Virus record (IMG/VR): IMGVR_UViG_3300017963_000674
Coordinates: 1 to 26,955 of that record
Length of the DNA stretch: 26,955 nucleotides
Source of the DNA: a virus
Reading direction: 5' to 3' (one strand)
The notes under the pieces were generated by a model. That model worked only from the letters and a program-made list of their open reading frames with translations, was not told where the DNA came from and ran no database searches. Position 1 is the stretch's first letter. Each line of letters begins with the position of its first letter. A program made the position numbers and the translations under genes. Positions 4,089 through 25,505 of this stretch are shown here, one piece after another.

Positions 4089-4101
4089 CGGGCCGCCTTT
4101 C

Positions 4102-8277: not shown

Positions 8278-8766
8278 TTAAAACAACCTTAACCGCAAGA
8301 TGAAACGCGCGCCGACATAACTTATAACATCTTGCCCGTATTCAAATGTCACCCTATCCGCGCGCCATTGGAAAGACTTACAATTTACGATTCCAAATGG
8401 TTGGGTACATGGCTGGGCTTTAATTTTGGCCCGAATCGCTTGTACACCATCTATCAATTTCACCATATCATCACCAATATTAGAACGCTGGGTCGCGTAA
8501 TAATCCGCGTGAATAATTATTGTTTCTTGAATAACCGGGCCATCTGAATCACCTAAGGTTAATTTTTGGGTTGCGCCCGAATCGGAGTCCACCGTTTCAA
8601 TTGCTTCCCAATAAACTTGGAACGTTTTGTCCGTGTTTATCCCTTCCGTTAATTCATCATAATTTTGTGGGTCGTTCAAATCCCCGGCGGCTTCTAATTC
8701 CTTGCCTAATTCAAAATAAACCGCGGTTATAATTTCCCCTAATTCATCGGTTGCATAACGAGTCAT
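8278..8766 (-). CDS. Tail terminator-like protein, 162 aa
   Basis: Probably caps the tail tube and joins it to the head connector. The ATG at 8766 overlaps the previous stop (ATGA), indicating translational coupling. The sequence has an N-terminal helix (LGEIITAVYFELGKELEAAG), an acidic middle (VDSDSGATQKLTLGDSDGP), then alternating strands and a helix (IIIHADYYATQRSNIGDDMV, LIDGVQAIRAKI) and a C-terminal strand VISYVGARFILRLRLF. That order resembles small tail-completion proteins of the lambda gpU/HK97 kind, and the place, right after a gp10-like gene, is the expected one. Assignment is mostly by gene order and fold-like pattern. Confidence 0.65.
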   Translation of the reverse strand: MTRYATDELGEIITAVYFELGKELEAAGDLNDPQNYDELTEGINTDKTFQVYWEAIETVDSDSGATQKLTLGDSDGPVIQETIIIHADYYATQRSNIGDDMVKLIDGVQAIRAKIKAQPCTQPFGIVNCKSFQWRADRVTFEYGQDVISYVGARFILRLRLF

Positions 8767-9218
8767 TTTGTCAACCTTTTTACATGATCCTCAAACGCCT
8801 TGTTAATATTTTTCACGTTCGACTCCAGCGCCCTGGCAAGAAACCGGCGCGCCGCCAGGCCGCGCCGCCCGATTGCCCGTACCACAGTATAAGCATTCAT
8901 ACCATGCCGGCGCGCCCAAACTCGCAACGCGGAAATTGGCGGGAAATGCGGTCGCGTTCCTAATTCCATAAAGGGCGCATATTTTACACTCGACCCGACT
9001 ATGCCTTGCACCGAATTCCACAAAGTTTTTACAGCCGGCATAATAGAAGCCCTTAACCGCCCGGTATCAACCGGCGCATTCTGGCGCGCGGATCCGGTAA
9101 CAATTGAAGTTGCCTTTTTCATTGGCGGAACCAAACCCGGGCCGCCAATTCCAGATTCAACCCGTTCTAACTTTCTTATGGTTGCGTTTAATCCCTTAAC
9201 TGTTATGGTATTTGTCAT
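8763..9218 (-). CDS. HK97 gp10-like tail completion protein, 151 aa
   Basis: Head-tail joining/tail completion protein. Characteristic motifs are visible: TGSARQNAPVDTGRLRASIM (the A-P-V-D-T-G-x-L-R-x-S signature of the gp10 family) near residues 41-60, then VGSSVKYAPFMELGTRPHFP (Y-A-x-[FY]-x-E-[FL]-G-T) and a basic C-terminal helical part. ATG 9218 overlaps the upstream stop and its own stop overlaps the downstream start, so connector, gp10-like and terminator genes form a tightly coupled trio. Length is normal for the family. Confidence 0.88.
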   Translation of the reverse strand: MTNTITVKGLNATIRKLERVESGIGGPGLVPPMKKATSIVTGSARQNAPVDTGRLRASIMPAVKTLWNSVQGIVGSSVKYAPFMELGTRPHFPPISALRVWARRHGMNAYTVVRAIGRRGLAARRFLARALESNVKNINKAFEDHVKRLTK

Positions 9219-9874
9219 GCCGGCCTGGGGCGCATAAATCGCCCGTTAACAAGAATCTGTTTAATATCTGGGTCTAATGCTTGCCTGTATAGCAATGTGC
9301 CTAATTCCCCAGAAGCCAACGCATCAGACATGGCCCCTTCATTTCGCTTGAACCATCGCGCCGCTTGCATTAAAGTCGCTTCCCGAATCGGTGCCGGCGT
9401 TTCCGCGGCATAACCCCAACGCGCCGATATTTGAACCATTGGAAGCGCCCGCCCACGGTGCCGGCGCTTGTTCATGCGCCCGCTGGGGAAAATGGAATAG
9501 TTGCCATTAGGGTCAATCATAAGTCCTTGGTATGGCTTGAGTATATCCAGCGGTTGAAAATCTGGCTCGATTGCCGCGCCGCCAAATGCTATCCAATCGG
9601 AATCGGCCCATGCCGTGTAGTCTGTATCGGTTATTGTATCTTTTGCGGCAACCGATACGATAGAAACACAATCCGGAATATACATATAATTTTTACCGGA
9701 TCCAAAAAACACTTTTTCGCTTGCTTCCGAATCCGCCAAAAAACCGACCGGATGATTTGTAAAACTATCTATCATATCGCCGGCGGCGGCAATAATTTCG
9801 TCTAGTATTTCATCTTCAAAACTAGTCGTGCGATTTATACGCTTTCTTAAATCGCTGGCGTTTGCATAGGCCAT
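9215..9874 (-). CDS. Head-tail connector (gp6-like adaptor), 219 aa
   Basis: Forms the ring below the portal. The N-terminus YANASDLRKRINRTTSFEDE followed by a helix with D-x-I-D-x-[FY]-T-N-H-P is the typical phage connector start (helix bundle with a conserved F/Y at the lumen). A beta-rich middle (residues 65-140) and a C-terminal helical part (REATLMQAARWFKRNEGA, LLYRQALDPDIKQIL) complete the pattern. The ATG at 9874 has AAAGGAAAACG upstream and lies inside the end of the preceding methyltransferase gene (28-nt overlap). In most related phages this gene follows the capsid gene directly; here about 6.7 kb of accessory genes intervene. Confidence 0.82.
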   Translation of the reverse strand: MAYANASDLRKRINRTTSFEDEILDEIIAAAGDMIDSFTNHPVGFLADSEASEKVFFGSGKNYMYIPDCVSIVSVAAKDTITDTDYTAWADSDWIAFGGAAIEPDFQPLDILKPYQGLMIDPNGNYSIFPSGRMNKRRHRGRALPMVQISARWGYAAETPAPIREATLMQAARWFKRNEGAMSDALASGELGTLLYRQALDPDIKQILVNGRFMRPRPA

Positions 9875-10470
9875 AATTCGTTTTCCTTTCTATAAATTCC
9901 AACCATTCCATTTTGGTTGGTATCTACAATAGCAATGTCAAAATCTTTACGTCCTAATTCTACTAACATTGTATTTAATGCCGTATATACAATGCGGCTT
10001 TGTGTAGGATGATAGTCATGGAATAACATCAGGCCGCCCGTTTTAAGCATATTAAACCAAGGCAAATCCAACCCGATTCGGTTATGATCACCGTCCACAA
10101 AAATAAAATCAAACGGCTTCCCATAATATCCCTTGAAATAATCCCAACTTTTTGATTGAATTACTTTCACATTCTTGAATGGTTGTAAATTCTTTTCCGC
10201 GGTTACCACTTCATGCGGAACCGGGTTTAATGTTTCTATTTCCGCCATCGGCGCGGCCTGGGCGATGATAGAAGCACTATAACCGGCAAACGTTCCAATT
10301 TCCAAGACCCGGGCCGCCCCAAAATTGTAATGCTCTGCAATTTGATATAATGCCGCGGCCTGATAGCGCAACAATTTCCTTTGGATCCGTTGCGAACGAT
10401 TTAAGGCGTCAACAATATGGGGATGTATTAACCGTTTCTCAAGTATTTCCGGACTATCAAAGTATCTCAT
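9847..10470 (-). CDS. Class I SAM-dependent methyltransferase, O-methyltransferase-like, 207 aa
   Basis: Likely transfers methyl from S-adenosylmethionine to a small molecule or glycan. Motif I is VLEIGTFAGYSAS (residues 55-67); FDFIFVDGDHNRIGL (120-134) and GGLMLFHDYHP (145-155) match the methyltransferase_24/catechol-O-methyltransferase-like pattern, with acidic residues suited to metal or substrate binding. Start ATG 10470 overlaps the upstream glycosyltransferase stop (ATGA) and has GAGG before it, so both are translated together. The coupling suggests methylation of a sugar made or placed by the neighbouring glycosyltransferases (inference). A target within phage or host glycan cannot be told from sequence. 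Confidence 0.8.
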   Translation of the reverse strand: MRYFDSPEILEKRLIHPHIVDALNRSQRIQRKLLRYQAAALYQIAEHYNFGAARVLEIGTFAGYSASIIAQAAPMAEIETLNPVPHEVVTAEKNLQPFKNVKVIQSKSWDYFKGYYGKPFDFIFVDGDHNRIGLDLPWFNMLKTGGLMLFHDYHPTQSRIVYTALNTMLVELGRKDFDIAIVDTNQNGMVGIYRKENELWPMQTPAI

Positions 10471-11393
10471 AAATGCCTCATGACGTATTCAATCCATTTC
10501 TGATAATCCAAACATTCGGCGGCCCATTGAAGCGATTCGGATCCGCGGTCCCGAATCAATTCGGGCCGCTGTATGTAAAATTCCAACTTATCCCGCAATT
10601 CCCCAGCCGATTGAATGTTAATTACCGGCGGCGGCGGGAAATGATTCCAAACTAATTCCGCATCATACATTTTCGAGAAAACAACGGAACCAGAGGCAAG
10701 GGATTCCGTTCCCGTTCGACCCAGACCATAAACCGCCCCATTGGGCGGCATCTGGTCTATTACAATATGCGCCGCCCCTTTACGCTTTAAGCATTCTGCA
10801 AGGGGTTGCATCATAATGCGTTCATAATTGAAATTATCATGCGTTTCTTGTAGTTCACTTATCACCGCTTCAATTTCTTTTGTCCCTTTTTGCTGGGCTT
10901 TTAATTCCCGGCCTGGCGCGTGAATAATGGTTAACTCTTTTTCCTTTGTGGTTTCAAAAACGGGCTGGGGATGGTGAAGGGGAATCGGTGCCAACCGCGA
11001 CCGCGGCATTAGATTCGGGAGCAAAAACAACCTGGCGTTTATATCCGCAACAATACCGTCAAAAAATGCCGGGTGTTTGTGGTAAATTGAATCTCCAAAA
11101 AATGCAATTGTTTGTTTCCCGCGCGCCCAATGTATCCAATTAAGGTCGGGAGAAACAACGCCTAATGTGTAGGCCGCCATTGAATCGCCTAACACAATTA
11201 AGTCGGCGGCGGCGGCCCATGCCTGGGCTTCTGTTATCGCCGCCGGGCCATCCAACAAAAGCCCATTATCATAATCGCGCCAGTCACTTGGGGCAAAAGA
11301 GATTAAACGCGATTCGCCCAGCAAGTTAAACGCCGGGACTAGTGTTTCACTACTGGCAAAATCTGGCCCATATACCAAAATAGCGGTTTTCAT
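10467..11393 (-). CDS. GT-B-like glycosyltransferase, 308 aa
   Basis: Resembles phage and bacterial GT4-type or spore-protein-like glycosyltransferases. Two Rossmann-like halves are seen: N-terminal MKTAILVYGPDFASS with ADLIVLGDSMAAYTLG, and a C-terminal half starting LTIIHAPGRELKAQQKGTKE, the usual 'H-x-P...K-G-T' donor-domain motif, continuing with IVIDQMPPNGAVYGLGRTGT and E-S-L-A-S-G, the conserved acidic/gly acceptor loop. The C-terminus (LDYQKWIEYVMRH) is helical. The start ATG 11393 has AAAGGCGGCGG upstream, within a tandem duplicated RBS region, and overlaps the previous gene by 4 nt. Donor and acceptor are not determinable. It belongs to a block of glycan-modifying genes. Confidence 0.75.
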   Translation of the reverse strand: MKTAILVYGPDFASSETLVPAFNLLGESRLISFAPSDWRDYDNGLLLDGPAAITEAQAWAAAADLIVLGDSMAAYTLGVVSPDLNWIHWARGKQTIAFFGDSIYHKHPAFFDGIVADINARLFLLPNLMPRSRLAPIPLHHPQPVFETTKEKELTIIHAPGRELKAQQKGTKEIEAVISELQETHDNFNYERIMMQPLAECLKRKGAAHIVIDQMPPNGAVYGLGRTGTESLASGSVVFSKMYDAELVWNHFPPPPVINIQSAGELRDKLEFYIQRPELIRDRGSESLQWAAECLDYQKWIEYVMRHL

Positions 11394-11605
11394 CGGATCC
11401 GCCGCCTTTCAAAATTCCGCCGCCTTTCAAAATATAACTTGTGAATTTTAACCGGTTGCAAGCCAACGCCGCCCTTATTGGCGCTTGTGGGATACTCCAA
11501 CGCTTCCGCGTCGACTACTGAAACCAATACCATGCCGGTTTTATCTGCTATCCACTCATGAACTTTGCCCGGCAACCACCAAATTAAAAACAATAACCGC
11601 CACAT
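11390..11605 (-). CDS. Small protein with hydrophobic N-terminus, 71 aa
   Basis: ATG 11605 follows AAGAAAGGA with good spacing, and its stop overlaps the next gene's ATG, so it is probably translated. The first 12 residues are hydrophobic and Trp-rich (MWRLLFLIWWLP), possibly a membrane-associated helix; the rest is soluble. The C-terminus is FERRRNFERRRIR, created by an 18-nt tandem duplication that also carries the RBS of the next gene. The protein end therefore seems shaped by the downstream translation signal. No family recognised; function unknown. Confidence 0.6.
   Translation of the reverse strand: MWRLLFLIWWLPGKVHEWIADKTGMVLVSVVDAEALEYPTSANKGGVGLQPVKIHKLYFERRRNFERRRIR
11398..11433 (-). 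repeat. Exact 18-nt tandem duplication carrying a Shine-Dalgarno sequence
   Basis: The minus-strand unit ATTTTGAAAGGCGGCGGA occurs twice in a row (11433-11416 and 11415-11398), just before ATG 11393. Each copy holds AAAGGCGG. Only the copy next to the ATG is at working distance. Confidence 0.9.
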
Positions 11606-11609
11606 GCTT

Positions 11610-12065
11610 TTATTCCTTTCTTGGCGTTAATATAGCTTTTACATTTCTTTTCTTTATTATACCACTGGATTCTATTTTCCATTTAAATTGGGTATAAAAT
11701 CCTGTTGTTTGCCCGTATTCCGTTGCCGGATCCGCAAAATGTAACGCGCGTTCACTCCAAAACCAACGGTGAGTCGGGTCATCATGTGCCGTTCTGGATG
11801 TATGAACCGGATACTTAATTATTAACCGCCCGCCAGGTTTCAAAAGCCGCCAGCATTCATCAAGCGTCTGTATCAAATCAATTTCCAAATGTTCGGCAAC
11901 GCTTATTAATTGTATTTCATCAAACGTTGAATCATACCAAGGCCACGGCCTAACATTTAAGTTATGGATTACATCTATTTCCGGCCTATGTTTCCATAAA
12001 TCATGATTAACCGCACCCTCAATTATTCGATTGCCAGCCCCTAGATTTAATATACGTTTATCCAT
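11610..12065 (-). CDS. Class I SAM-dependent methyltransferase, 151 aa
   Basis: Short methyltransferase with motif I ILNLGAGNR (residues 5-13), an acidic loop after strand 2 (AVNHDLWKHRPEIDVIHNL), FDEIQLISVAEHLE (motif II region) and LDECWRLLKPGGRLIIKYPV, the standard post-motif pattern of methyltransferase_11-like enzymes. The ATG at 12065 is preferred because GAGGGGGCG stands upstream; a TTG at 12080 is less likely. The ATG overlaps the preceding bifunctional glycosyltransferase stop (ATGGATAA), so co-translation is likely. Such enzymes often accompany glycosyltransferases in polysaccharide clusters, supporting a sugar-modifying role (inference). Confidence 0.8.
   Translation of the reverse strand: MDKRILNLGAGNRIIEGAVNHDLWKHRPEIDVIHNLNVRPWPWYDSTFDEIQLISVAEHLEIDLIQTLDECWRLLKPGGRLIIKYPVHTSRTAHDDPTHRWFWSERALHFADPATEYGQTTGFYTQFKWKIESSGIIKKRNVKAILTPRKE
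11656..11661 (-). promoter_or_regulatory. Possible internal extended -10 promoter
   Basis: Minus strand TGGTATAAT contains a perfect -10 hexamer with TGn extension, about 50 nt before ATG 11605. The -35 is poor and the site lies inside the methyltransferase coding sequence, so it may be chance. Confidence 0.3.
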
Positions 12066-13692
12066 TTTTCGCCCCCTCAAATTGCCGCACCGCGCGCCAG
12101 GCCTGGGGTGAATCTAGGCGGTCGTGAATTCCCTTACCATACCGCCGCGCCTCTACATTATGGTGAATAATAGCCACTTTGCCCGGCGGCATTGGATACC
12201 GGTCGCTTGCGTTCCAAATGTTTGATAAAACAAAGGTGCGCATTGGGTTTTTATAAAATGCCCGTAATAACGCCCCTTGATCACGCCCAGCCCACCGGTC
12301 GTATTCTGCAAGCCAGGACTCAAAAAATGCCGCGGTTGCCGGCGTTCGCCTGTAAGCAAACACGCCGCCGTTATATTGCATAACTCTATTACATCCAATT
12401 TCCGCAACGGTTGCGTTATATTCTTGCTCATTATCGCCGCGATTCATTTGGGCCAAATAATGCCGGTCGTGCATATCCTTACAAATTACAAATTCCCAGC
12501 CGGATTCCAGTATATCAAAAATAAAATCAACCGATTCAGTCAATTCCGTATCGGCATCTAAATATAAAACATAACCCCAATTTTTTGGGGCAAGGCGGTC
12601 AACGCTTAACTTAGCGAATCGACCGCCTATATCCCTATCCGGCTCATTTACAAAATACGTTTCACCGGCGTTCAAAGGTTGGTCACTTGCCAGCATAACC
12701 GGCATATCAGGCATAAACATTTTAATTGAGTTTATTAACCGCCTGGCACAACGCCGTGACGGTTCACCATAGGCAACGCAATAAACACCCCTTAACCCTT
12801 TCTGGATTGCGGGCGGATTTGCCACCAGCGGCCCGGTATTATGCAACAACCTTTCAAACGCGACTCTATGGTCGTACGCCCAATTTGCTGGGCTGTATTG
12901 CGCAACCGCCGCCCGCAATGATTCCGGGTCCGGCGGCGGCGCATCGATTGCCGTATTAAATGCATCTAATAGCGAGTCATAATCGCCAAGTTTGAATCGA
13001 TAAATGCCGCGGATGGTTGGCAAATCATCCAGCATACCAACGCCATGCGGAATGATCACCGGCACCCCACATGCCAAAATTTCCAGCGGCGGCATAGGGA
13101 TTCCTTCAATTCGTGAAGCGCAAATAAACAAATCAAGAGATTGATAAAATGCCGGCAATTGTTTCCAACTATACATTTTTGTCGGCACCGCCCAGCCGCG
13201 CCCGCTGGCGGCCCATTCAACCGATTGACCCGCTGGGCATCCTTTCAAGCGGGTTATTAAATCTTCACCCTTACGATTATCATTGTATAGATAACCACTC
13301 AAGCCAACGCGCCGGCGCGCGCTTGGCTTCCTGGGCGCTGGGACAAAATTATCTAATTCAACCGCCGGCCTAACCATTGCCAGCGGGCCATGCTCAACCA
13401 AATCCGGCCCATAAATGCCGGCGGTAAGCGTTCGCAAATCAACACGGGCGGCAACATCATTCCATAAAGCCGCCTTTTGTGGGTTTTGAGTATCCTTATG
13501 AGTAAACCATGCCGCCGACCGCCCTTCCCATTGCCGGCGCTGTAATTCCAAGTAAGGAAAAAAGTAATTTAATTGTGCTTTTGGGTTTGGCGCTTCACCT
13601 AATGTCCAACCGGTTTCCGCGGAAAGGGTGCGGGCCAAACGCGGCAAAACTCGGTCGGCATTTAAGCGGGCGGCTACAATATGAACATTCAC
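12058..13692 (-). CDS. Bifunctional glycosyltransferase: GT-B (GT4-like) plus GT-A (GT8-like), 544 aa
   Basis: Residues 1-270 look like a GT4-type GT-B enzyme: a YNDNRKGEDL segment and, near residues 175-215, LFICASRIEGIPMPPLEILACGVPVI, the conserved E-x(7)-E donor-sugar motif. Residues 300-540 are a GT-A domain (GVYCVAYGEPSRR, KLSVDRLAP, YVLYLDADTEL with the DxD metal motif near 376-378, YNGGVFAYRR, RDQGALLRAFYKN). The GT-A half is clearly related to the stand-alone enzyme at 14995-15618. The GTG start at 13692 overlaps the upstream stop (GTGA), and no in-frame ATG lies nearby. Two active sites in one chain suggest consecutive sugar additions to the same acceptor (inference). Confidence 0.85.
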   Translation of the reverse strand: MNVHIVAARLNADRVLPRLARTLSAETGWTLGEAPNPKAQLNYFFPYLELQRRQWEGRSAAWFTHKDTQNPQKAALWNDVAARVDLRTLTAGIYGPDLVEHGPLAMVRPAVELDNFVPAPRKPSARRRVGLSGYLYNDNRKGEDLITRLKGCPAGQSVEWAASGRGWAVPTKMYSWKQLPAFYQSLDLFICASRIEGIPMPPLEILACGVPVIIPHGVGMLDDLPTIRGIYRFKLGDYDSLLDAFNTAIDAPPPDPESLRAAVAQYSPANWAYDHRVAFERLLHNTGPLVANPPAIQKGLRGVYCVAYGEPSRRCARRLINSIKMFMPDMPVMLASDQPLNAGETYFVNEPDRDIGGRFAKLSVDRLAPKNWGYVLYLDADTELTESVDFIFDILESGWEFVICKDMHDRHYLAQMNRGDNEQEYNATVAEIGCNRVMQYNGGVFAYRRTPATAAFFESWLAEYDRWAGRDQGALLRAFYKNPMRTFVLSNIWNASDRYPMPPGKVAIIHHNVEARRYGKGIHDRLDSPQAWRAVRQFEGAKNG

Positions 13693-14102
13693 CGGGCTAT
13701 TATCTCAACTTTGCCGGTTAAACGTTCGGTTACTTGCTTACCATCTTGAGTGTAGTCAAATCCAAACAATTTAAGCGGCCTGATTATATAGCCATCAATT
13801 GAATCCGCGACCCGTATAACATCGGTTACGTTTTCCCCATTGAAAAATACACTATTTGTTTTGTGTATTTTTGCCGCATTGCTGGCGGCGTTTATGTTGA
13901 TATTCAAATAAATAATTACTTCCCCATAAACTTTATCAATTGCCGGGTCGTTACCTTCAACAATAATTGCGCCGGCTTCATTCTTGCGTAATATCTTGAC
14001 CCAACCATCTATGTTATCGGCTTCAACACAATCCGCGGTTACATTTTCGCCATCTAAAAAAACCGCTTTTACACTTTTATAGTCCGCCACTGTAACAAAC
14101 AT
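13689..14102 (-). CDS. Hypothetical protein with internal duplication, 137 aa
   Basis: ATG 14102 directly follows the DNA methyltransferase stop and has AAGGTAG upstream; the stop overlaps the next gene's GTG. Residues 18-34 (GENVTADCVEADNIDGW) and 89-105 (GENVTDVIRVADSIDGY) are copies of one motif, each after a V-x-F strand, so the protein is probably two small beta modules joined by a hydrophilic linker. No catalytic motif or signal peptide is visible. The similar size of the modules and its place between head and glycan genes leave both a structural (head fibre/decoration) and an accessory role open. Confidence 0.65.
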   Translation of the reverse strand: MFVTVADYKSVKAVFLDGENVTADCVEADNIDGWVKILRKNEAGAIIVEGNDPAIDKVYGEVIIYLNININAASNAAKIHKTNSVFFNGENVTDVIRVADSIDGYIIRPLKLFGFDYTQDGKQVTERLTGKVEIIAR

Positions 14103-14113
14103 TTAACTACCTT
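14100..14113. repeat. 14-nt direct repeat, distal copy
   Basis: CATTTAACTACCTT, identical to 14988-15001. Each copy includes the start codon and RBS of the following gene on the minus strand. The pair brackets exactly one gene, the DNA methyltransferase, with an 888-nt period. Confidence 0.85.
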
Positions 14114-14990
14114 CTCTGGCTTTTGGTGGTAATAATTCCGATTGGTAGTAATTCGGCTGCAACGTTTTGTTATGTGCCGTAACGGGAAGGCCGGGCAAAG
14201 GTACACGCGCCCCGGCAACCCGTTTGGTTGCCAGGTCACAATACTCTTGACTAATGTCAATACCGATGTACTGCCGGCCTTGCTCAACCGCCATTTTCAG
14301 GGTTGTGCCGCTGCCACACATTGGATCAAGAACGATATCGCCGGGGTTACTCCAAGATATTATATGGTCACGGGCTAGGGCTTCGGGAAATTGCGCGGAG
14401 TGGGCATAAGCAAACTTATCCCGTGTGTTTTTCCAATAACCGGCTGGAATGTACCAAATATTATTTCTAATAGTCGTAGCGGCGTAACCGCCGCCACGCC
14501 ATTGGTTTTTTTTGCCTCCGTCTTTTTGTCGATAAGTTATACCAACCCTATCAAGACCGGCCTTCAATGCCGGTCTTGATAGGGGATTAAAAGTGCTGGG
14601 CGTTCCTTTGCTAAAAACAAACATATATTCAAAGCAGGATTGATACCGATTATTATTCATCGGTGGCTTGTCTGTTTGGTAAATCATTGTATCGTGAACA
14701 TTAAAGCCGATTGACTTAAAATACAGTTTTTGCACATCACTGGTACAAGTCTCACTCCCGTTCACCGTCGCATCAGCCACAATCCAAACCACTACGCCGC
14801 CAGGCTTCGTCACCCGCCAAAGTTCTGCGGCTATTGGTTCAAAATCAAACGTGTATCCGTTGTACTCCCGCATGTCGTCATAAGGCGGAGAGGTTACGGT
14901 TAAGTCTATCGAGTTGTCTGGTATGTGGCGGCGCATTGTTTCGCCACACTCACCACAGTAAATTGTGTTGGTTTCATAAGATTCTTTCAT
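14103..14990 (-). CDS. Beta-class DNA methyltransferase (SPPY type), 295 aa
   Basis: Modifies adenine N6 or cytosine N4 in DNA. Catalytic motif IV is TSPPYDD (residues 34-37 SPPY), followed much later by motif I DPMCGSGTT (about 220-228) and QYIGIDISQEYCDLA; the order IV-then-I marks the beta class. SPPY favours N4-cytosine but does not settle it. A CxxC pair near residues 12-15 (YCGECG) is unusual. The part between the motifs (about 100-200) is probably the target recognition region and includes a perfect DNA hairpin at 14546-14584. No restriction enzyme gene is near, so it is a solitary methyltransferase, perhaps anti-restriction. Identical 14-nt sequences flank the gene. Confidence 0.9.
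   Translation of the reverse strand: MKESYETNTIYCGECGETMRRHIPDNSIDLTVTSPPYDDMREYNGYTFDFEPIAAELWRVTKPGGVVVWIVADATVNGSETCTSDVQKLYFKSIGFNVHDTMIYQTDKPPMNNNRYQSCFEYMFVFSKGTPSTFNPLSRPALKAGLDRVGITYRQKDGGKKNQWRGGGYAATTIRNNIWYIPAGYWKNTRDKFAYAHSAQFPEALARDHIISWSNPGDIVLDPMCGSGTTLKMAVEQGRQYIGIDISQEYCDLATKRVAGARVPLPGLPVTAHNKTLQPNYYQSELLPPKAREGS
14546..14584. repeat. Perfect 16-bp inverted repeat with 7-nt loop inside a coding sequence
   Basis: Left arm CCCTATCAAGACCGGC (14546-14561) and right arm GCCGGTCTTGATAGGG (14569-14584) are exact complements around the loop CTTCAAT. It lies in the methyltransferase gene and codes for PLSRPALKAGLDR. A U-rich tail is absent on the minus strand, so a conventional terminator is unlikely. 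Confidence 0.9.
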
Positions 14991-15001
14991 TTAACTACCT
15001 T
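14988..15001. repeat. 14-nt direct repeat, proximal copy
   Basis: CATTTAACTACCTT at the start of the DNA methyltransferase gene, the same as at 14100-14113. Flanking bases differ on both sides, so the repeat is limited to this stretch. Confidence 0.85.
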
Positions 15002-15618
15002 GCCTTTCCAAATTGATGTTCAATGATTGACCCTTTTTCACTATTCCAATCTAAACCCAAAAGCCAGGTTTTAACTGGATGGCGATGGAACGCCCGTACA
15101 AAAGCCGCCTGGTCTTTATCCCTGAAACGTTCCCACTCCGCGCGCCAGGCCGAAAATAAATCATTACAAGCCATGCGATTAAACATCAGGACGCCGGCTT
15201 GAAATTGAAGCGGCATAGGGTTGGCGGTTTCATCCAACGTTAACCGGCGTTCCCTTTCTTCAATATGCTGAAACATCGCCGCCCCTTGATTTACCGATGG
15301 TGCCAAAACTAAGTCGTAAAAATCCAACATTTTCACCGCCGGCATTAAATCCGCATGGATTCTGGTATCGGCATCCAAATAGATGATGCGATCGTATGGT
15401 GCCAAAATATCAACATTCAACTTTGCCCAGCGCGCGCCCGGGCCGGCATCCGGCATTATAATAGTGTTTACACCCTTACTATCAAACGGTCGGGAGCAAA
15501 TAACAGAAACCGGGAAACCATTATGTTTACGCAAGGTGTTAATACTGGCGGCGGCTTCAATCCGCGCGCGCGCGCCAAACGCGACATAACAGACGCCCGT
15601 TTTATCCAACATATTCAT
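14995..15618 (-). CDS. GT-A glycosyltransferase (GT8-like), 207 aa
   Basis: Compact nucleotide-sugar-dependent glycosyltransferase. GVCYVAFGARAR starts the Rossmann-like fold, KLNVDILAPYDRIIYLDADTRI holds the DxD motif (residues 82-84) that binds the metal and nucleotide sugar, FQAGVLMFNR and KDQAAFVRAFHRHPVKTWLL correspond to the acceptor region, and IIEHQFGK gives the late His. These match the C-terminal half of the 12058-13692 product, so the two are paralogues. ATG 15618 has AGGGA close by; an ATG at 15612 is a possible alternative with better spacing. Substrate unknown; part of the glycan cassette. Confidence 0.82.
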   Translation of the reverse strand: MNMLDKTGVCYVAFGARARIEAAASINTLRKHNGFPVSVICSRPFDSKGVNTIIMPDAGPGARWAKLNVDILAPYDRIIYLDADTRIHADLMPAVKMLDFYDLVLAPSVNQGAAMFQHIEERERRLTLDETANPMPLQFQAGVLMFNRMACNDLFSAWRAEWERFRDKDQAAFVRAFHRHPVKTWLLGLDWNSEKGSIIEHQFGKAR

Positions 15619-15892
15619 GGATCCCTAAATAAAAATCAAGGGTGCCGGTATTTTGGCCCGGGCACATACAACGCGCCCATAATTTTGACCCAGCCGGTGC
15701 ACGGCCTGTTTGCACCTTGGTAATGCCCTTAAAGTCGGCCCAAATTTCAAAGTTTTCCGCGGTTGCCGGCGCGCTTGAGAATCGGCAAGATACATAATTC
15801 AGTTTTGCGTCTGCCTGGGGTTGTATGGTGCGGTTAACCGCGCCCGTTTCTGAAAATCGATATGTTTTTAATGCGAATAAATCAGCTATCAT
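15602..15892 (-). CDS. Hypothetical beta-rich protein, 96 aa
   Basis: The ATG at 15892 is chosen because AAAAGGTG stands upstream and the previous gene ends 10 nt before; a TTG at 15913 is less likely. Its 3' end overlaps the start of the downstream glycosyltransferase by 17 nt. The sequence is mainly beta-like (ALKTYRFSETGAVNRTIQPQ, NFEIWADFKGITKVQTGRAP) with a Cys pair in WARCMCPG and an aromatic C-terminus LDFYLGIHEYVG. No signal peptide or membrane segment. It could be a small virion or fibre component; family not recognised. Confidence 0.65.
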   Translation of the reverse strand: MIADLFALKTYRFSETGAVNRTIQPQADAKLNYVSCRFSSAPATAENFEIWADFKGITKVQTGRAPAGSKLWARCMCPGQNTGTLDFYLGIHEYVG

Positions 15893-15902
15893 AAAACACC
15901 TT

Positions 15903-16526
15903 TTATTGTTCAACCCAAATAGTCGGCAATGCCAAGATATACGGTTTTACTTCCCATAATGCGCGCAATAATGATAAATGCGGATCGCCGCCCGCTTGCA
16001 AATCTGATAGATATAAATCTATCAATTGCTCAGTTGCAATTGCCCGGCGTAAAAACATCATGCCCGGTTCATAAACCGGGACTCGCAAATCCGGAATTAA
16101 AGCCGCGGTTTTCTCGCGTTCGGCGGCGGTTCCGTATTCTTTAGCTAATCTGTTGTAATCTGTTATGGGGACTAAAACTTCAAACTTATCCAGCAAGCTA
16201 AACGCCGCCGGCAATAGTTTAGTATTAAGGAATATTTGCGGATCCCAAATGAGAGTCCGCTCAAATGCTAATTGTGGGTCACCGCTTTTAATTTCCAAGG
16301 TTGTTTGTATATCTGGCTGGGCACCTATGCAAACGATTCCGGATTCGGGCGGTATTACTAAATTAAGGGTTGCCGGGTTGCAAATCTCAACTTGCCCAGT
16401 GGCGACTCGTTGCCTGGCGGCCCCTTTTGGTAATTGAAACCAGTCGCCCGGGTGTTTGGTTTCCATTTCGGCATGTTCATTGGTTATGTAATTTATAGTA
16501 ATTGCCTTAACCCATACGTTTGCCAC
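15903..16526 (-). CDS. Probable GT-A-like protein with phage N-terminal extension, 207 aa
   Basis: GTG 16526 has GGGG upstream and is the first gene after the capsid terminator palindrome. The first about 50 residues (a GDWFQLPKGAARQRVATGQVE stretch is not quoted in full) resemble short phage modules that follow capsid genes. The C-terminal half (VPVYEPGMMFLRR, IDLYLSDLQAGGDPHLSLLR, ALWEVKPYILALPTIW) matches the end of GT-A glycosyltransferases, where D-x-x-L-L-R-A-L-W precedes a conserved W, and parallels DQGALLRAFY in the neighbouring enzymes. Yet the central DxD motif is not obvious (ERTLIWDPQIFLNT is the nearest), so activity is uncertain. It might be a degenerate or divergent glycosyltransferase. 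Confidence 0.55.
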   Translation of the reverse strand: MANVWVKAITINYITNEHAEMETKHPGDWFQLPKGAARQRVATGQVEICNPATLNLVIPPESGIVCIGAQPDIQTTLEIKSGDPQLAFERTLIWDPQIFLNTKLLPAAFSLLDKFEVLVPITDYNRLAKEYGTAAEREKTAALIPDLRVPVYEPGMMFLRRAIATEQLIDLYLSDLQAGGDPHLSLLRALWEVKPYILALPTIWVEQ

Positions 16527-16560
16527 TTTTACCCCAGCAAATAAAATATTAAATTGATAA

Positions 16561-16598
16561 ATTCCAACGGGCGGCCCATATGGGCCGCCCGTTGGAAT
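16561..16598 (-). terminator. 38-bp perfect palindrome, likely terminator of the head operon
   Basis: Arms 16561-16579 and 16580-16598 are exact reverse complements (19 bp each, core GGGCGGCCCATATGGGCCGC). It begins 5 nt after the decoration gene stop on the minus strand and is followed by an AT-rich tail (TTTATCAATTTAATATTTT). This fits a strong Rho-independent terminator, although the U tract is interrupted. Confidence 0.75.
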
Positions 16599-16603
16599 GC
16601 GGT

Positions 16604-17038
16604 TTAATCTACAATTTCATCCCAATTGGCGGTATCAACTGGTTTTGTTTTCGGCTCAACCCCATACAAGGTCGCCCCAAAAATTACGGTTGCACCGGCG
16701 GTTGTAACGTAAAAGCGAACGTAACTGCCATTGACGTCCAATTCTTCGCCGCGTAATTCAATGGCAACCTTTGCCGGCGTATCCCCATCAGCTTGAGCCA
16801 ATTGAGTGATTGTTTTTCCAGAAATTGCCTTGACGCCGGTTCCCGCGGAATCTGACGCCTGTTGAATACCGGCGTCAATGGTTGCGCCCGCGGCGCAATC
16901 GCCAACGTCCAATACCAATAAATGCCGGCTATGTTTACTTGTGGAAAGGTAAGCGGAATTGTGAGTCCCCGGGCCATGATCATCGGGCGGCATAATTGCC
17001 AGCGGTTCCATTTTTTCGGTCGCGCGTTCGGTATACAT
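16604..17038 (-). CDS. Probable head decoration protein, 144 aa
   Basis: Follows the major capsid gene, has a very strong RBS (AGGAGGTAACT) and is closed by a terminator, as expected for an abundant head protein. The N-terminus is extended and polar (MYTERATEKMEPLAIMPPDD), then LLVLDVGDCAAGATIDAGIQ, KAISGKTITQLAQADGDTPA and ELRGEELDVNGSYVRFYVTT form a regular beta-rich core similar in pattern to phage capsid-stabilising or structural proteins of this position. No membrane segment. Assignment rests on context and expression signals rather than on a recognised motif. Confidence 0.65.
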   Translation of the reverse strand: MYTERATEKMEPLAIMPPDDHGPGTHNSAYLSTSKHSRHLLVLDVGDCAAGATIDAGIQQASDSAGTGVKAISGKTITQLAQADGDTPAKVAIELRGEELDVNGSYVRFYVTTAGATVIFGATLYGVEPKTKPVDTANWDEIVD

Positions 17039-17062
17039 TTATAGTTACCTCCTATTATGTTA

Positions 17063-17082
17063 GGGCGGCGGATCCGCCGCCC
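17063..17082 (-). terminator. 20-bp perfect palindrome between capsid and decoration genes
   Basis: GGGCGGCGGATCCGCCGCCC lies between the major capsid stop (17120) and the RBS of the decoration gene. It can form a GC-rich hairpin, but no U tract follows (TAACATAA), so partial termination, RNA processing or mRNA 3'-end protection is more likely than full termination. Confidence 0.5.
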
Positions 17083-17119
17083 CTATTGATTAATCACTTA
17101 ACATGCCATTTGGCTGGGA

Positions 17120-18448
17120 TTAGGTGGTAATGGTGGTTCCCAAAACAACAAAGGGTGAAACCTGGGTCGACCCGTCCTCATAGGTGAAGGGTTTTGATAA
17201 CCACGGTTGCCCGCCAACCCTATGCACCGCGCGCCAGGATGTAATATCATTTCGGAATTTGTAATGCTTGCTTGCATCGACGGTTGTTGCTTTCCGGTCA
17301 CCCACAAGATACTTTTTGAAGTCGTACAAACCAAGGTCGCCCTTGGATCCCAGCGCCGGACAATGCTCGGAAAAAATCACCGGATAACCAAACAAGGTCG
17401 CCGGCATTCCATCGCGCGCATTAGGCATAAACACATATGAGGGATTCCCGGTCGGGCCGGATAATTCCATCAATTCAGATAAAATGTTTTGGCTTGCCAT
17501 CCATACCGGGTTGGATCCCTGGAACGCTTCAAGTATGCGAATCACGTCCTTAATTGAAACCGCGCCGGCGACGTCACGGGTTGCGGTAATGGTTGCCGTT
17601 GCATTGACAACGCCCAACGGTTGCCCGCTTCCGCTGCCTTTCAAGAATGCATTTTCCTCATACCAATTGATTGACCCGCGAAACACCTCACCTAACAAGG
17701 CTTCAAGGCTAACCGCCGAATCTTCCAACAATTCGTCGGTTGCTTCGGTATAACATACCAACTTATGAGCAATTAATTGTTCTTGAATGAATGATGGTTC
17801 CGTTTCATCCTTTTCACCGCCAGACTCAGTCCATTGGGCCAAAACGCCGCCAAACCAATGGGGTTGACCGCTGGTTGTGCCCGTTTGGTTGAGTACCGGG
17901 AATCGGATAGCGCGCCGGCGCATTGGCATGATGGTTGCCCGACTTCGGATAGTAGTGGGCGGCGCTTCAACCATGTAAAGGGTGTTATCTTGCTCCGTTG
18001 GCACCAAAAAGCCGCCGGATGCTCCAACGGATTCGTCAAGGGCTTTCCCTTCCATATCCAGCCAGCCCGTTTTAGTTTCGCCGGTATCATCCGGTTCATC
18101 AGTAAACGTTACCGGATTCAAACGTAGGTCGGGTCGTCCTTTGAACGTTGCGGCATAAATGGCGGAATAGTAATGCCCCATTGTATCGAATACCTTTGAT
18201 TTGGTATTTTGCGGGCCTTCTGGCGGGTTGTGAGTATCCATAACAGACGCCAAGGTTTCCCCAGCGCCCTTGATAGCCAAAAGGGACTCAATTTGGGCGG
18301 TTAAATCTTGTCCGCCCTTAACCATATTTTCGGCTTTTTCCCGGTCTTCCGCGGTTACATCATCAGCGGTTAAAATTGCTTCCGCATCAAAAAACAACTT
18401 GGCGGCCTGTTCTTTCATTTCCAGCATTTTTTGTCCGTTGACTTTCAT
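17120..18448 (-). CDS. Major capsid protein, HK97 fold, 442 aa
   Basis: Main head shell subunit. Residues 1-60 form a charged, helical delta/scaffold-like domain (MKEQAAKLFFDAEAIL, EDREKAENMV) normally removed by the prohead protease. The mature part begins before SVGASGGFLVPTEQDNTLY (about 140-158), the classic 'G-G-[FY]-L-V-P' start of HK97 capsids. Later markers are RFPVLNQTG, WFGGVLAQWTESGGEK, a long helical spine (TEATDELLEDSAVSLEALLG), FLKGSGSGQPLGVVNA, and a C-terminal RNDITSWRAVHRVGG. RBS GGAGGTG is near optimal, and the ATG starts right after the protease stop. All agree with high expression and post-assembly processing. Confidence 0.97.
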   Translation of the reverse strand: MKVNGQKMLEMKEQAAKLFFDAEAILTADDVTAEDREKAENMVKGGQDLTAQIESLLAIKGAGETLASVMDTHNPPEGPQNTKSKVFDTMGHYYSAIYAATFKGRPDLRLNPVTFTDEPDDTGETKTGWLDMEGKALDESVGASGGFLVPTEQDNTLYMVEAPPTTIRSRATIMPMRRRAIRFPVLNQTGTTSGQPHWFGGVLAQWTESGGEKDETEPSFIQEQLIAHKLVCYTEATDELLEDSAVSLEALLGEVFRGSINWYEENAFLKGSGSGQPLGVVNATATITATRDVAGAVSIKDVIRILEAFQGSNPVWMASQNILSELMELSGPTGNPSYVFMPNARDGMPATLFGYPVIFSEHCPALGSKGDLGLYDFKKYLVGDRKATTVDASKHYKFRNDITSWRAVHRVGGQPWLSKPFTYEDGSTQVSPFVVLGTTITT

Positions 18449-18449
18449 T

Positions 18450-19562
18450 TTAGTACACCTCCAACAATTTCAATTTCTGGGTTGCTATTTGCAACCTCAA
18501 AATACTATGATTTGTTTTGGGTGAATCGTCATCCGGCGGCCCGGCGGAATCGGTTTGATCATCCGAGTCCGTGGGTGCGTTTGTGGACTTGCCATCCGGC
18601 CCATTATCAACATTAGAATCAGCGCCCATTGTTTCGGCGCTGGCTAATACCTCATTTATTGCGGCGGCGGCGGCTTGCAGTTTTGCTTTGTTTGCCTTAT
18701 TCAATACCGCGCCGGCTTTTGTTTCCGTTTCCGGTTCATCATCTTTTGGCGGATCCGCTGGCGGGTGCCAATTCTTAAATAACTCACCTTGCAACGCGGC
18801 GTCCGCCGCCATTGCGCGCCCAGCCCATTCGAGCAAGGCCGCGGAAAATTGGGCTAAACTTCTATCAATAATTTCGATTTTTTGGTCTAGTGGGAAGTCG
18901 GTATTATCCGCGCGCAATGTACTAAATAATACTTCATGTAGTGTATCGAAAATTTGCCATCTTTGATCCCATAATTCCGCTTCAATTTGGTTATTACTTA
19001 ATTGGGTTGCAAAGTCGGCAAGTTTCATGCCTTTGGCGTTGGTGGTAGTAGTTGCCTCATTCATACCCCATAACACCGGGCTAACCTCATATAATTTTAT
19101 AGTGCGTAGATTCCGGATAGTATTATCGCCTACGGTTTCAAAATCAAAATCAAGGGCATCATAACCAAAAGACCATTCACGGATCCAATCTTTTGAAAGG
19201 CGATAAAATACCGCCGCGCTTCTGGCATCCTTTGCCGGGTCTGGCTCAAACTTTACAGTAATTTCCGCGCCGCCTAGCGCATCCGGAAACGCTTTGATAA
19301 CTTCTGGCGGCAATTCATCCCGCGGGACTTCACGCAATTTAACGGGTTTTCCGATGGTATCACCGGTTGATTCATATCGGTGATTATCTAATACCAAAAC
19401 CTTTGACCCACGTTCGGCAAATGTTTTAGTAAATGCGCCGGGCCATGTTTTATCGCCGCCGGAATCCACGTTCCCAAATACGGAAAAAATTGCGGTTACT
19501 AACCCTTCCGATTCATCAATATTCGTTACATAAGCGTCGACCGCCTTTCTTTGCCATTTCAT
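18450..19562 (-). CDS. HK97-type prohead protease, 370 aa
   Basis: Cleaves the capsid delta domain during head maturation. His61 in VLDNHRYESTGDTIGK and Ser131 in EWSFGYDALDFD are the expected catalytic His and Ser, followed by RTIKLYEVSPVLWGMNEAT, the conserved L-x-E-V-S-x-V segment. The N-terminal barrel-like part (TAIFSVFGNVDSGGD) is also typical. The C-terminal about 190 residues are an additional acidic, coiled and Ser/Asp-rich region ending near DSDDQTDSAGPPDDDS, possibly serving as scaffold. RBS AAGGGGG precedes ATG 19562. A strong sigma70-like promoter lies about 30 nt upstream. Confidence 0.95.
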   Translation of the reverse strand: MKWQRKAVDAYVTNIDESEGLVTAIFSVFGNVDSGGDKTWPGAFTKTFAERGSKVLVLDNHRYESTGDTIGKPVKLREVPRDELPPEVIKAFPDALGGAEITVKFEPDPAKDARSAAVFYRLSKDWIREWSFGYDALDFDFETVGDNTIRNLRTIKLYEVSPVLWGMNEATTTTNAKGMKLADFATQLSNNQIEAELWDQRWQIFDTLHEVLFSTLRADNTDFPLDQKIEIIDRSLAQFSAALLEWAGRAMAADAALQGELFKNWHPPADPPKDDEPETETKAGAVLNKANKAKLQAAAAAINEVLASAETMGADSNVDNGPDGKSTNAPTDSDDQTDSAGPPDDDSPKTNHSILRLQIATQKLKLLEVY

Positions 19563-24263: not shown

Positions 24264-25505
24264 CTAACCTTTCAATAATTTTGGTACGGATCCTGTATGA
24301 TTTGCCCAGCGGTCGAGTATAACCGCGGCATAACCTGGGTCAATTTCCGCGGCATAACAAAGCCGCCCAATGTTTCCCGCCGCAATTAAAGTTGAACCGG
24401 AACCGGCGAATCCATCAAACACAATACCATCCAGCGGGCACAAATCTCCAATTATTTCTGCGCAAATTCTAACGGGCTTCATGGTTGGATGTATTGCCCG
24501 TTTGCCGCCGGCGGCCTTGACTCGCGCTTCTGTAATCAGATTCCCGCGGAAAAACTCAAGCGCCGCTTTTTCCCTGGCAAAAACAACCGCCATTTCATAT
24601 TGTTCACCATAACCGCCCTTGCCATGTAAACCTGGGCTTTTCTTATCCCAAACAATCACAGTTTCTATATCCCAGCCAGTAAAGGCGGCTATCAATTCGA
24701 CATATGTATGCCATTGCACCCATACAACGCAAAAATTACCCTTGATAACATTGTCAACAATGCCGGGCAATTCAAAAATTGTGTTTGTGTTTTCATCGCC
24801 GGCGATGTAACGCAAACCCAGCCGCCTGCGCCCGTATCCGGTACTATTCCCATAAGGCGGGTCAGTAAAAACCATACTTGCCTTTTTACCGCCCATCAAT
24901 AGCGCCAGGTTTTCAACATTTGTTGAAGAGTCACATAAAAGGCGATGATTGCCCAGCCCCCACAATTGCCCGGCTTCAACCCCATATTTCTGGGCTAATT
25001 CGGCGGCCTGGTCAACATTTGCCGGCGTATCCCGCCCCGTGTTTTGTTGCTCATTTTGATCATTGGTAAATATTTGGCCTATTTCATCGCCATTATACCA
25101 ATGGGATAAATCAACCCCTTTTAAGCTATGGGCCTTCAAGGTTGCCGGATCCATTTTTATTCCAACCTGGGCGGCCCGGTTCAATCCTATTGAAATTTCA
25201 CGCGCTGGATTATCGGGATCCGTTAAATCTAAATCATTATAACGCAAAAAAACCGGGACTCCCGGTTTCGCGTCAACAATTTGTATTTCTTCCATTCCCA
25301 GCGATTTATACATATCACGCCGGTTATTGCCGCCAACAATGCCGCCATGAACATCTAAGACTCCCGCCTCACGCGCGCCATATTGCTGGATTGAATGTTT
25401 TAGCATTTGCGTTCCACGTTGTGTATGTACGTTTGGGTTTTCCGGATCCAAAGTCAATGAATCAAGCCCAGCATTTTCAATTTGCTGGGCGGCTTTTTTA
25501 GTCAT
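24264..25505 (-). CDS. ParB-like domain fused to beta-class DNA methyltransferase, 413 aa
   Basis: Residues 12-115 form a ParB/Srx-like domain (LTLDPENPNVHTQRG, HGGIVGGNNRRDMYKSLG with the G-N-x-R-x loop, IGLNRAAQVG). Residues about 175-410 are the methyltransferase: LWGLGNHRLLCDSS, VFTDPPYGNSTGYG (DPPY at 215-218), HPTMKPV (about 338) and FDGFAGSGSTLIAAG (about 362), ending in EIDPGYAAVILDRW. DPPY suggests adenine N6 methylation, though N4-cytosine is not excluded. This fusion is common next to phage terminases; it may protect DNA from restriction or mark packaging sites. RBS is weak (GAG). A small hairpin region separates it from the upstream gene. Confidence 0.92.
   Translation of the reverse strand: MTKKAAQQIENAGLDSLTLDPENPNVHTQRGTQMLKHSIQQYGAREAGVLDVHGGIVGGNNRRDMYKSLGMEEIQIVDAKPGVPVFLRYNDLDLTDPDNPAREISIGLNRAAQVGIKMDPATLKAHSLKGVDLSHWYNGDEIGQIFTNDQNEQQNTGRDTPANVDQAAELAQKYGVEAGQLWGLGNHRLLCDSSTNVENLALLMGGKKASMVFTDPPYGNSTGYGRRRLGLRYIAGDENTNTIFELPGIVDNVIKGNFCVVWVQWHTYVELIAAFTGWDIETVIVWDKKSPGLHGKGGYGEQYEMAVVFAREKAALEFFRGNLITEARVKAAGGKRAIHPTMKPVRICAEIIGDLCPLDGIVFDGFAGSGSTLIAAGNIGRLCYAAEIDPGYAAVILDRWANHTGSVPKLLKG

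Follow-up and report, generated by a model that had tools for sequence, protein, structure and literature searches.

Results

We analysed a 26,955-nucleotide stretch of DNA from an uncultivated phage (IMG/VR record IMGVR_UViG_3300017963_000674; hereafter the window), in which a compact block of glycosyltransferase and methyltransferase genes occupies positions 9847-16526. Every gene of the block and of its flanks is on the minus strand, the junctions within the block are overlaps of 4-23 nt or spacings of 0-4 nt, and the G+C content is level across the whole block. An earlier note on this DNA had placed the block between the capsid and decoration genes (16604-18448) and the connector gene, and profile matches of the flanking genes bear this out. 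On one side lie genes for a protease (18450-19562), an HK97-type major capsid protein (17120..18448; phrog_10, E 6e-51) and a protein at the decoration position (16604..17038; phrog_28483, a family of unknown function, E 4e-21). On the other side the block is bounded by the head-tail adaptor, or connector (9215-9874; phrog_442, E 3e-11), followed by a neck protein identified by profile match (8763-9218). The sole real gap at the block, 77 nt at 16527-16603, separates it from the decoration-position gene and contains a perfect 38-bp palindrome (16561..16598, minus strand; -38.9 kcal/mol, z -6.2). Other hairpins are found at the same junction in relatives, and the palindrome is possibly an attenuator. 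Mis-assembly, which would have undone the earlier proposal, is very unlikely, because a separate contig (L004) carries a nearly identical block at the same place.

One gene of the block (12058..13692) encodes a fused glycosyltransferase, the structure model of which has a pLDDT of 93. Its N-terminal half is a GT-B domain (residues 1-285, about 12838-13692) that matches PF00534 above the cut-off (E 4e-9), contains the E-x7-E motif and the lysine of GT4-like enzymes and, in the model, reaches Z 27.0 against MshA. The C-terminal half (residues 300-530, about 12103-12795) has a GT-A fold in the model, with BoGT6a and EXT among its structure matches, and a DxD motif in 58/58 sequences. K141, E196, E204, D379 and D381 are invariant in all 58. 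A single-domain GT-A glycosyltransferase (14995..15618), 31% identical to the C-terminal half of the fused enzyme, likewise has the fold together with a DxD motif at residues 82-84, D82 and D84 being invariant in 14/14 sequences. The GT8 and Nucleotid_trans matches of these two GT-A domains were below the cut-off (for the single-domain enzyme, GT8 at E 3e-4). The gene at 10467..11393 probably encodes a further GT-B glycosyltransferase, as suggested by weak matches and a GLGRTGTEALA motif in an alignment of seven. The at least four glycosyltransferase modules counted in the earlier note are thus present, two of them in the fused enzyme, and there is a degenerate fifth besides.

This fifth module is the product of the gene at 15903..16526 (c5u), a shortened relative of the GT-A enzymes (hhalign E 5e-7 to the fused glycosyltransferase). 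Its fold is recognized by profile and by model (Z 8.7, rmsd 3.0 over 139 residues against GT-A enzymes), Foldseek by itself giving a weak signal. At the column matched by eye to the DxD of the fused enzyme, however, none of 64 c5u sequences has the motif, as compared with 58/58 fused enzymes, and, when secondary structures are compared by eye, c5u seems to lack helices that the active relative has in its donor-binding half. Given its reduced length and the missing DxD, it is probably a pseudo-glycosyltransferase. It could instead be an active, metal-independent glycosyltransferase, since BoGT6a, which its entry describes as a metal-independent bacterial glycosyltransferase, is among the closest structures to c5u (Z 8.6); with the motif absent and the helices apparently gone we regard this as unlikely, and, concerning one component only, it would be compatible with any of the readings of the block weighed below.

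As proposed earlier, the block also contains two small-molecule-type SAM methyltransferases (11610..12080, PF08241, E 2e-6; 9847..10470, PF13578, E 3e-11) and an N6/N4 DNA methyltransferase (14103..14990; PF01555, E 8e-43). The last of these does not belong to the cassette as had been thought: it is a local extra outside the glycan core, and the nearest relatives, L003 and L004, do not have it here. The remaining genes encode a small phage protein (13689..14102; phrog_3540, E 8e-8, in two stretches), which resembles two copies of a unit of roughly 69 amino acids present as one copy in L003 and L004, a 71-amino-acid product that matches no family in profile searches (11390..11605) and a small protein of no known function found in close relatives only (15602..15913). 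Profile searches gave no family match in the block to a flippase or a lipid-carrier enzyme, and hydrophobicity searches of its proteins revealed no clear membrane segment; one marginal hydrophobic stretch in the fused enzyme (mean 1.72 over 19 residues) is taken as part of a folded domain. The block is also unlike a serotype-converting Gtr operon in having neither a membrane flippase nor a membrane-bound glucosyltransferase.

Relatives of the fused glycosyltransferase were found in 92 viral contigs, whereas a tblastn search with two copies of the fused enzyme found none in cultured phages among 50,697 phage records. The capsid gene is upstream of the fused glycosyltransferase in 81 of the 84 informative loci, as its immediate neighbour or at a remove of two to four genes; a reverse search starting from the capsid protein recovered the same block independently. 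The same block thus recurs at the same site in related phages, a search that the earlier note had called for. Across 42 loci spanning the block, the core consists of the fused glycosyltransferase (42/42), c5u (42/42) and the methyltransferase of the 11610-12080 type (37/42); the 9847-10470 type of methyltransferase is present in 7/42. Variable extras in relatives include GT2 enzymes, UDP-glucose dehydrogenase, TylF-like enzymes and, in 15/42 loci, a sulfotransferase-like protein that is not in the window. Its sequences match Sulfotransfer_3 in 14/14 cases with E no higher than 0.1 (2.5e-8 for the best), the first member falling just under the cut-off (25.1 against 27 bits), and it has the PAPS-type RSGGTF motif expected of a sulfotransferase. 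The block behind the capsid gene is real, but it is a core feature of the sampled lineages rather than a cassette dropped into one phage. Likewise, the view that it interrupts the usual gene order holds against cultured relatives (no glycosyltransferase is annotated at this site in any of the eight capsid relatives inspected), but not within its own lineage, where the order is normal.

The relatives fall into two groups. In group B (64 loci) the capsid gene directly precedes the fused glycosyltransferase, at a distance of up to 250 nt in 62 of them, and no locus has the decoration-position gene or the single GT-A enzyme. The decoration-position gene is confined to group A, and all 17 loci with it also have the single GT-A enzyme. 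Group A makes up one side of a branch in a two-domain IQ-TREE (99*); the nesting of some of its enzymes within group B, seen in a first FastTree of the GT-B domain, was gone in this tree. Three loci with other head types, which the tree places at three separate spots, still have the block among head genes, and in two loci (L088 and L092) its upstream neighbour is not the capsid gene. Long antisense reading frames between portal and glycosyltransferase in G+C-rich contigs were discarded as artefacts, profile hits giving the order portal-protease-capsid.

Discussion

The above results suggest that phages with this block probably decorate their own particles with sugar chains. Virion glycosylation, already proposed in the earlier note, is the best reading of the block and is now better supported, if still in part, because the placement near the capsid gene is fixed, the catalytic residues are conserved and neither a clear membrane component nor one of lipid-carrier type is seen; the active sites of the encoded glycosyltransferases are intact, as phage-encoded virion glycosylation would require. 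We consider it reasonably likely that the block encodes cytosolic machinery for assembling a methylated glycan on a structural protein, the most likely acceptor being the major capsid protein. In the scheme that we infer, sugars and linkage included, the glycan would be added before or during head assembly. One glycosyltransferase domain (that of the single GT-A enzyme, or else GT-B or GT-A in the fused enzyme) would start the glycan by adding a sugar to the protein, the remaining domains would lengthen it, and the small-molecule methyltransferases would cap it; in relatives the ends may be altered by sulfotransferase-like, GT2 or TylF-like enzymes. It is possible that c5u, having lost the donor/metal motif, has no catalytic role and assists as a partner by holding the acceptor or the active glycosyltransferase. 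Such a coat would probably block binding to the particle, or change adsorption or stability.

Simple linkage within a lineage would likewise keep block and capsid gene together, and another head protein may be the acceptor, because the capsid gene does not adjoin the block in L088 and L092. The glycan could be mainly on a decoration-position, tail-tube or tail-fibre protein. Tail-tube glycans have been reported for mycobacteriophages (PMC12619734), the product of positions 3-1094 of the window ends in Ser/Pro-rich repeats, and the decoration-position gene goes together with the single GT-A enzyme. This co-occurrence, however, tracks the division into groups A and B and is confounded by ancestry, and group B has the core block directly behind the capsid gene without any decoration-position gene; we find a target other than the capsid unlikely. 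As for the capsid protein itself, many of those accompanied by the glycosyltransferase end in SGS or in Ser/Thr. The C-terminal serine was nevertheless rejected as the acceptor, since Redi, which has no glycosyltransferase at the site, also ends in SGS. A conserved loop in the capsid proteins is a lead only, being confounded by ancestry.

It is improbable that the enzymes modify glycans of the host surface instead, for example against superinfecting phages. The same kinds of glycosyltransferases do act on host polysaccharides, and many of the GT-B matches are to enzymes that act on small molecules or on glycans of the cell envelope, but neither a flippase nor a lipid-carrier enzyme was recognized in the block, nor any clear membrane segment, and its place among head genes is maintained in other head modules. 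That the enzymes add sugars to a modified base in phage DNA, in partnership with the DNA methyltransferase, appears very improbable. Phage glycosyltransferases that act on DNA are known (cited in PMC12619734), and the methyltransferase does lie within the block of the window; however, it is missing there in the nearest relatives, thymidylate-synthase-type genes occur in 1 of 24 long, possibly incomplete, records, and nothing hints at why DNA-glycosylating enzymes should be tied to a capsid gene. TET-type genes were found in 0 of the same number of long records (0/24), a negative that we did not use, as the search had no positive control and the records may be incomplete.

Glycosylation of the major capsid protein, the reading we favour, has precedents. 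In mycobacteriophages, both capsid and tail-tube proteins are described as glycosylated (PMC12363180, PMC12619734); Che8, Corndog and Myrna are likewise tailed phages whose own glycosyltransferases act on these two targets (Freeman 2023, via PMC12363180, PMC12619734 and PMC11256854). No sequence relationship to the virion glycosyltransferases of mycobacteriophages was detected in the tblastn search with the fused enzyme. In Maravista (cluster F1) the glycosyltransferases lie towards the 3' end of the genome rather than behind the capsid gene (PMC11256854), and a fused glycosyltransferase with a conserved pseudo-glycosyltransferase is not mentioned for mycobacteriophages in the available portions of PMC12363180, PMC12619734 and PMC11256854. 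Virus-encoded glycosylation of a capsid protein is also described for PBCV-1 (PMC9614988), where A064R and A061L resemble the block in joining glycosyltransferase domains in one chain and in capping the capsid-protein glycan with methyltransferases. They differ in that virus and capsid are unrelated, the methyltransferase forms part of a fusion and the glycan has an N-linked core. The link to the block is at the level of the fold only, via c5u, which has the PBCV-1 GT-A domain (2p72) among its structural matches (Z 8.3). Human heparan sulfate polymerase, EXT1-EXT2, matches in structure and also has GT-B and GT-A in one chain, but whole-chain similarity is low (TM about 0.3, rmsd above 13) and nothing here points to polymer synthesis. 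In streptococci, adhesins are O-glycosylated by GtfA and GtfB, the latter a non-catalytic co-activator. The way of working may be similar in that a cytosolic glycosyltransferase acts together with a partner that shares its fold, the GtfA-GtfB heterodimer being described in PMC8561734. Those are, however, GT-B proteins acting on secreted adhesins, whereas c5u is GT-A-like and much shorter.

Glycosylation of tailed-phage virions is so far known from a few mycobacteriophages. More tentatively, large uncultivated lineages may share a module that is devoted to capsid glycosylation and fixed in place after the capsid gene. A fused GT-B/GT-A enzyme would work there with a conserved pseudo-glycosyltransferase partner, and variable methyl (in relatives, sulfate) caps would give each phage a different coat. 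If so, virion glycosylation would be a core trait of sizeable uncultivated phage lineages. It would rely on enzymes for which no relative could be detected among cultured phages, and exchangeable caps, a sulfotransferase-like enzyme among them, would diversify it. We did not accept a host assignment via metagenome-assembled genomes (MAGs), because extra matches per class were few and phage contigs are often mis-binned. Extra matches were found in 0/368 genomes of the class of a Sideroxydans MAG, 1/293 of the class of a Dehalococcoidia MAG and 3/395 (two of them partial) of the class of an Anaerolineae MAG, at most a hint of a host in Chloroflexota.

The enzyme block within the late operon

The late operon lies on the minus strand of the window (26,955 bases) and runs in the order terminase, portal, protease, capsid, decoration-position protein, enzyme block, head-tail adaptor, neck protein and tape measure, the terminase and portal being named from sequence and neighbour-gene profiles. 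The earlier note had placed glycosyltransferase (GT) modules, two small-molecule methyltransferases and a DNA methyltransferase between capsid and connector, and all were indeed found there, at 9847-16526. On the minus strand the block holds a fused glycosyltransferase (12058-13692), a single GT-A (14995-15618), a probable GT-B (10467-11393) recognized only from a conserved motif and weak matches, and methyltransferases at 9847-10470 and 11610-12080; the DNA methyltransferase, of the N6/N4 type, is at 14103-14990. Junctions throughout are overlapping or almost touching. The DNA methyltransferase is absent from that place in L003 and L004, two loci on other contigs, where a 69-aa gene stands alone. 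We noted that this ~69-aa protein, single-copy in L003 and L004, is seemingly tandemly duplicated in the window (13689-14102), and that the DNA methyltransferase gene contains a near-perfect 19-bp inverted repeat (14546-14584; 95%, arms 1 nt apart).

Distribution of the block

When viral contigs were searched with the fused enzyme, 92 relatives turned up, of which 80 were kept; neighbour-gene profiles were run over these, three loci found through the capsid and eight MAG loci. In 64 loci (group B) the capsid gene is immediately upstream of the block, no more than 250 nt away in 62, and in 17 loci including the window (group A) the order is capsid, decoration-position gene, c5u (a core gene, 15903-16526 in the window) and single GT-A in varying order, then fused GT; these counts are of contigs, which are non-independent lineages and include some near-copies. 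In three informative loci (L046, L088 and L092) a capsid gene of this type is missing upstream, and L003 and seven others end too early to inform on capsid placement. The same block was also recovered starting from the capsid protein. Among the nearest capsid relatives (the best 80 of 514 and the best 80 of 460), the fused GT lay downstream of the capsid in 65 and 47, respectively. Nearly all the others were too short or matched no GT profile but that of the single GT-A; L230 alone among the kept capsid relatives had at least 4 kb downstream yet no GT match.

In the 42 loci that each cover capsid through connector, the fused GT and c5u were always present (42/42 each), followed by the methyltransferase of the 11610-12080 type (37/42) and a sulfotransferase-like gene (15/42), with every remaining gene in at most 7. 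The distance from capsid end to connector start was 2.9-10 kb (median 4.5 kb). All 14 members of the sulfotransferase-like family match Sulfotransfer_3 (E up to 0.1); the window itself lacks this gene. Further extras in relatives are GT2 enzymes, a UDP-glucose dehydrogenase and a TylF-type methyltransferase.

Searching 50,697 phage records by tblastn gave no match for the fused GT (copies from the window and L086) or for c5u (L086 copy). Capsid relatives are present among cultured phages; those of Redi, Tarzan, Eesa, Galaxy, phiT45-1 and Vulpecula share ~43-45% identity with a group B capsid protein, and in these phages a lone small gene separates the capsid gene from the adaptor. Kronos has a single hypothetical gene ahead of the connector and Dagobah several hypothetical genes; no GT is annotated at this site in any of these phages.

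Two core proteins

Residues 1-285 of the fused GT form a GT-B domain (Z 27.0 against MshA, rmsd 2.6 over 280 residues) and the remainder a GT-A domain. K141, E196, E204, D379 and D381 are unchanged in 58 of 58 enzymes. In L078, L079, L080, L081, L090, L091 and L092 the two halves occupy adjacent separate reading frames, which may in each case reflect a true gene split or a sequencing error.

c5u, a probable pseudo-glycosyltransferase, matches the GT-A half of the fused GT in profile comparison (E 5e-7). Its AlphaFold model (pLDDT 94) resembles bovine alpha-1,3-galactosyltransferase (Z 8.7), BoGT6a (Z 8.6) and the PBCV-1 A064R domain 2p72 (Z 8.3), with rmsd ~3 over 124-139 residues. Since Foldseek by itself gave weak matches (best E 0.004) and Z values near 8 are modest, the GT-A assignment draws on profile and structure together. 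The DxD motif was found in 0 of 64 members at the corresponding column, located by matching strands by eye in two models because the hhalign register was poor around it. As BoGT6a shows, inactivity cannot be concluded from a missing DxD alone.

Apparent movement between head modules

In a tree of 57 enzymes built on both domains by a quick method, group A forms one side of a branch (value 99), and L046, L088 and L092 take three separate positions within group B. The head genes of these three are not alike: in L046 a phrog_1005 capsid gene lies upstream at a distance of a few small genes, while L088 has a terminase upstream and a portal downstream, and L092 a virion protein upstream and a portal downstream. 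Thus, the fused GT seems to have passed into other head modules, and it stays among head genes. c5u is retained in L088 and also in L092, whose head module is different and where it is fused to a methyltransferase-like region (12367-13614), which ties it to the glycan block rather than to one capsid type.

Possible acceptor and expression

No block protein has a clear membrane segment and no lipid-carrier enzyme was seen in the block, which fits cytosolic transfer; the glycan would be transferred in the cytosol onto a cytosolic acceptor. Placement makes the capsid protein the leading candidate. The virion glycosylation suggested earlier is partly supported; the DNA methyltransferase, missing from its place in L003 and L004, is a local extra.

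Group B capsid proteins (L010-L091) carry a short conserved loop before KPE, which in most reads EANV[TK]-x-x-[ST]-GATGE. The corresponding loop of six GT-less cultured relatives is longer and different, and in group A residues of QTGTT type stand at a comparable position. Y172 and N215 (L086 reading-frame numbering) occur in 54 of 55 capsid proteins from GT-carrying loci versus 0 of 6 from the GT-less relatives. The loop may serve as a lead for the glycan site, though a comparison of sequences confounded by ancestry does not count as evidence of glycosylation.

Between the decoration-position gene and c5u lies a perfect 38-bp palindrome (16561-16598; z -6.2). Strong hairpins of changing sequence occupy the same junction in L004, L005, L006, L029, L067, L083, L084 and L085, or about half of group A as judged by eye. 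Plausibly, the hairpin would be an attenuator holding the enzymes below the structural proteins; more broadly, it is possible that it acts as an attenuator or a processing site.

In outline of working the block resembles known systems. In PBCV-1 A064R, two GTs are combined with a methyltransferase, and together they finish the capsid glycan (PMC9614988). The mycobacteriophages Che8, Corndog and Myrna carry glycosylated proteins (PMC12363180), and the glycans are reported to sit at the C-termini of the subunits of capsid and tail tube (PMC12619734). No sequence relationship of the block to any cultured phage was detectable, and we found no published account of it in the literature searched, which was partial in coverage.

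Elsewhere in the window, the protein of 3-1094 ends in SPSASVSPSSS-type repeats at the record's end and is a possible glycan acceptor or linker. A long tail-region protein (1551-4163) has WNG/WDG repeats, beta-propeller-like, and a signal-peptide-like start, though its true start may be further in. Ahead of the terminase genes, 24264-25505 combines a ParB-like N-terminal part with a DNA methylase (by eye); one L088 protein matches both families.
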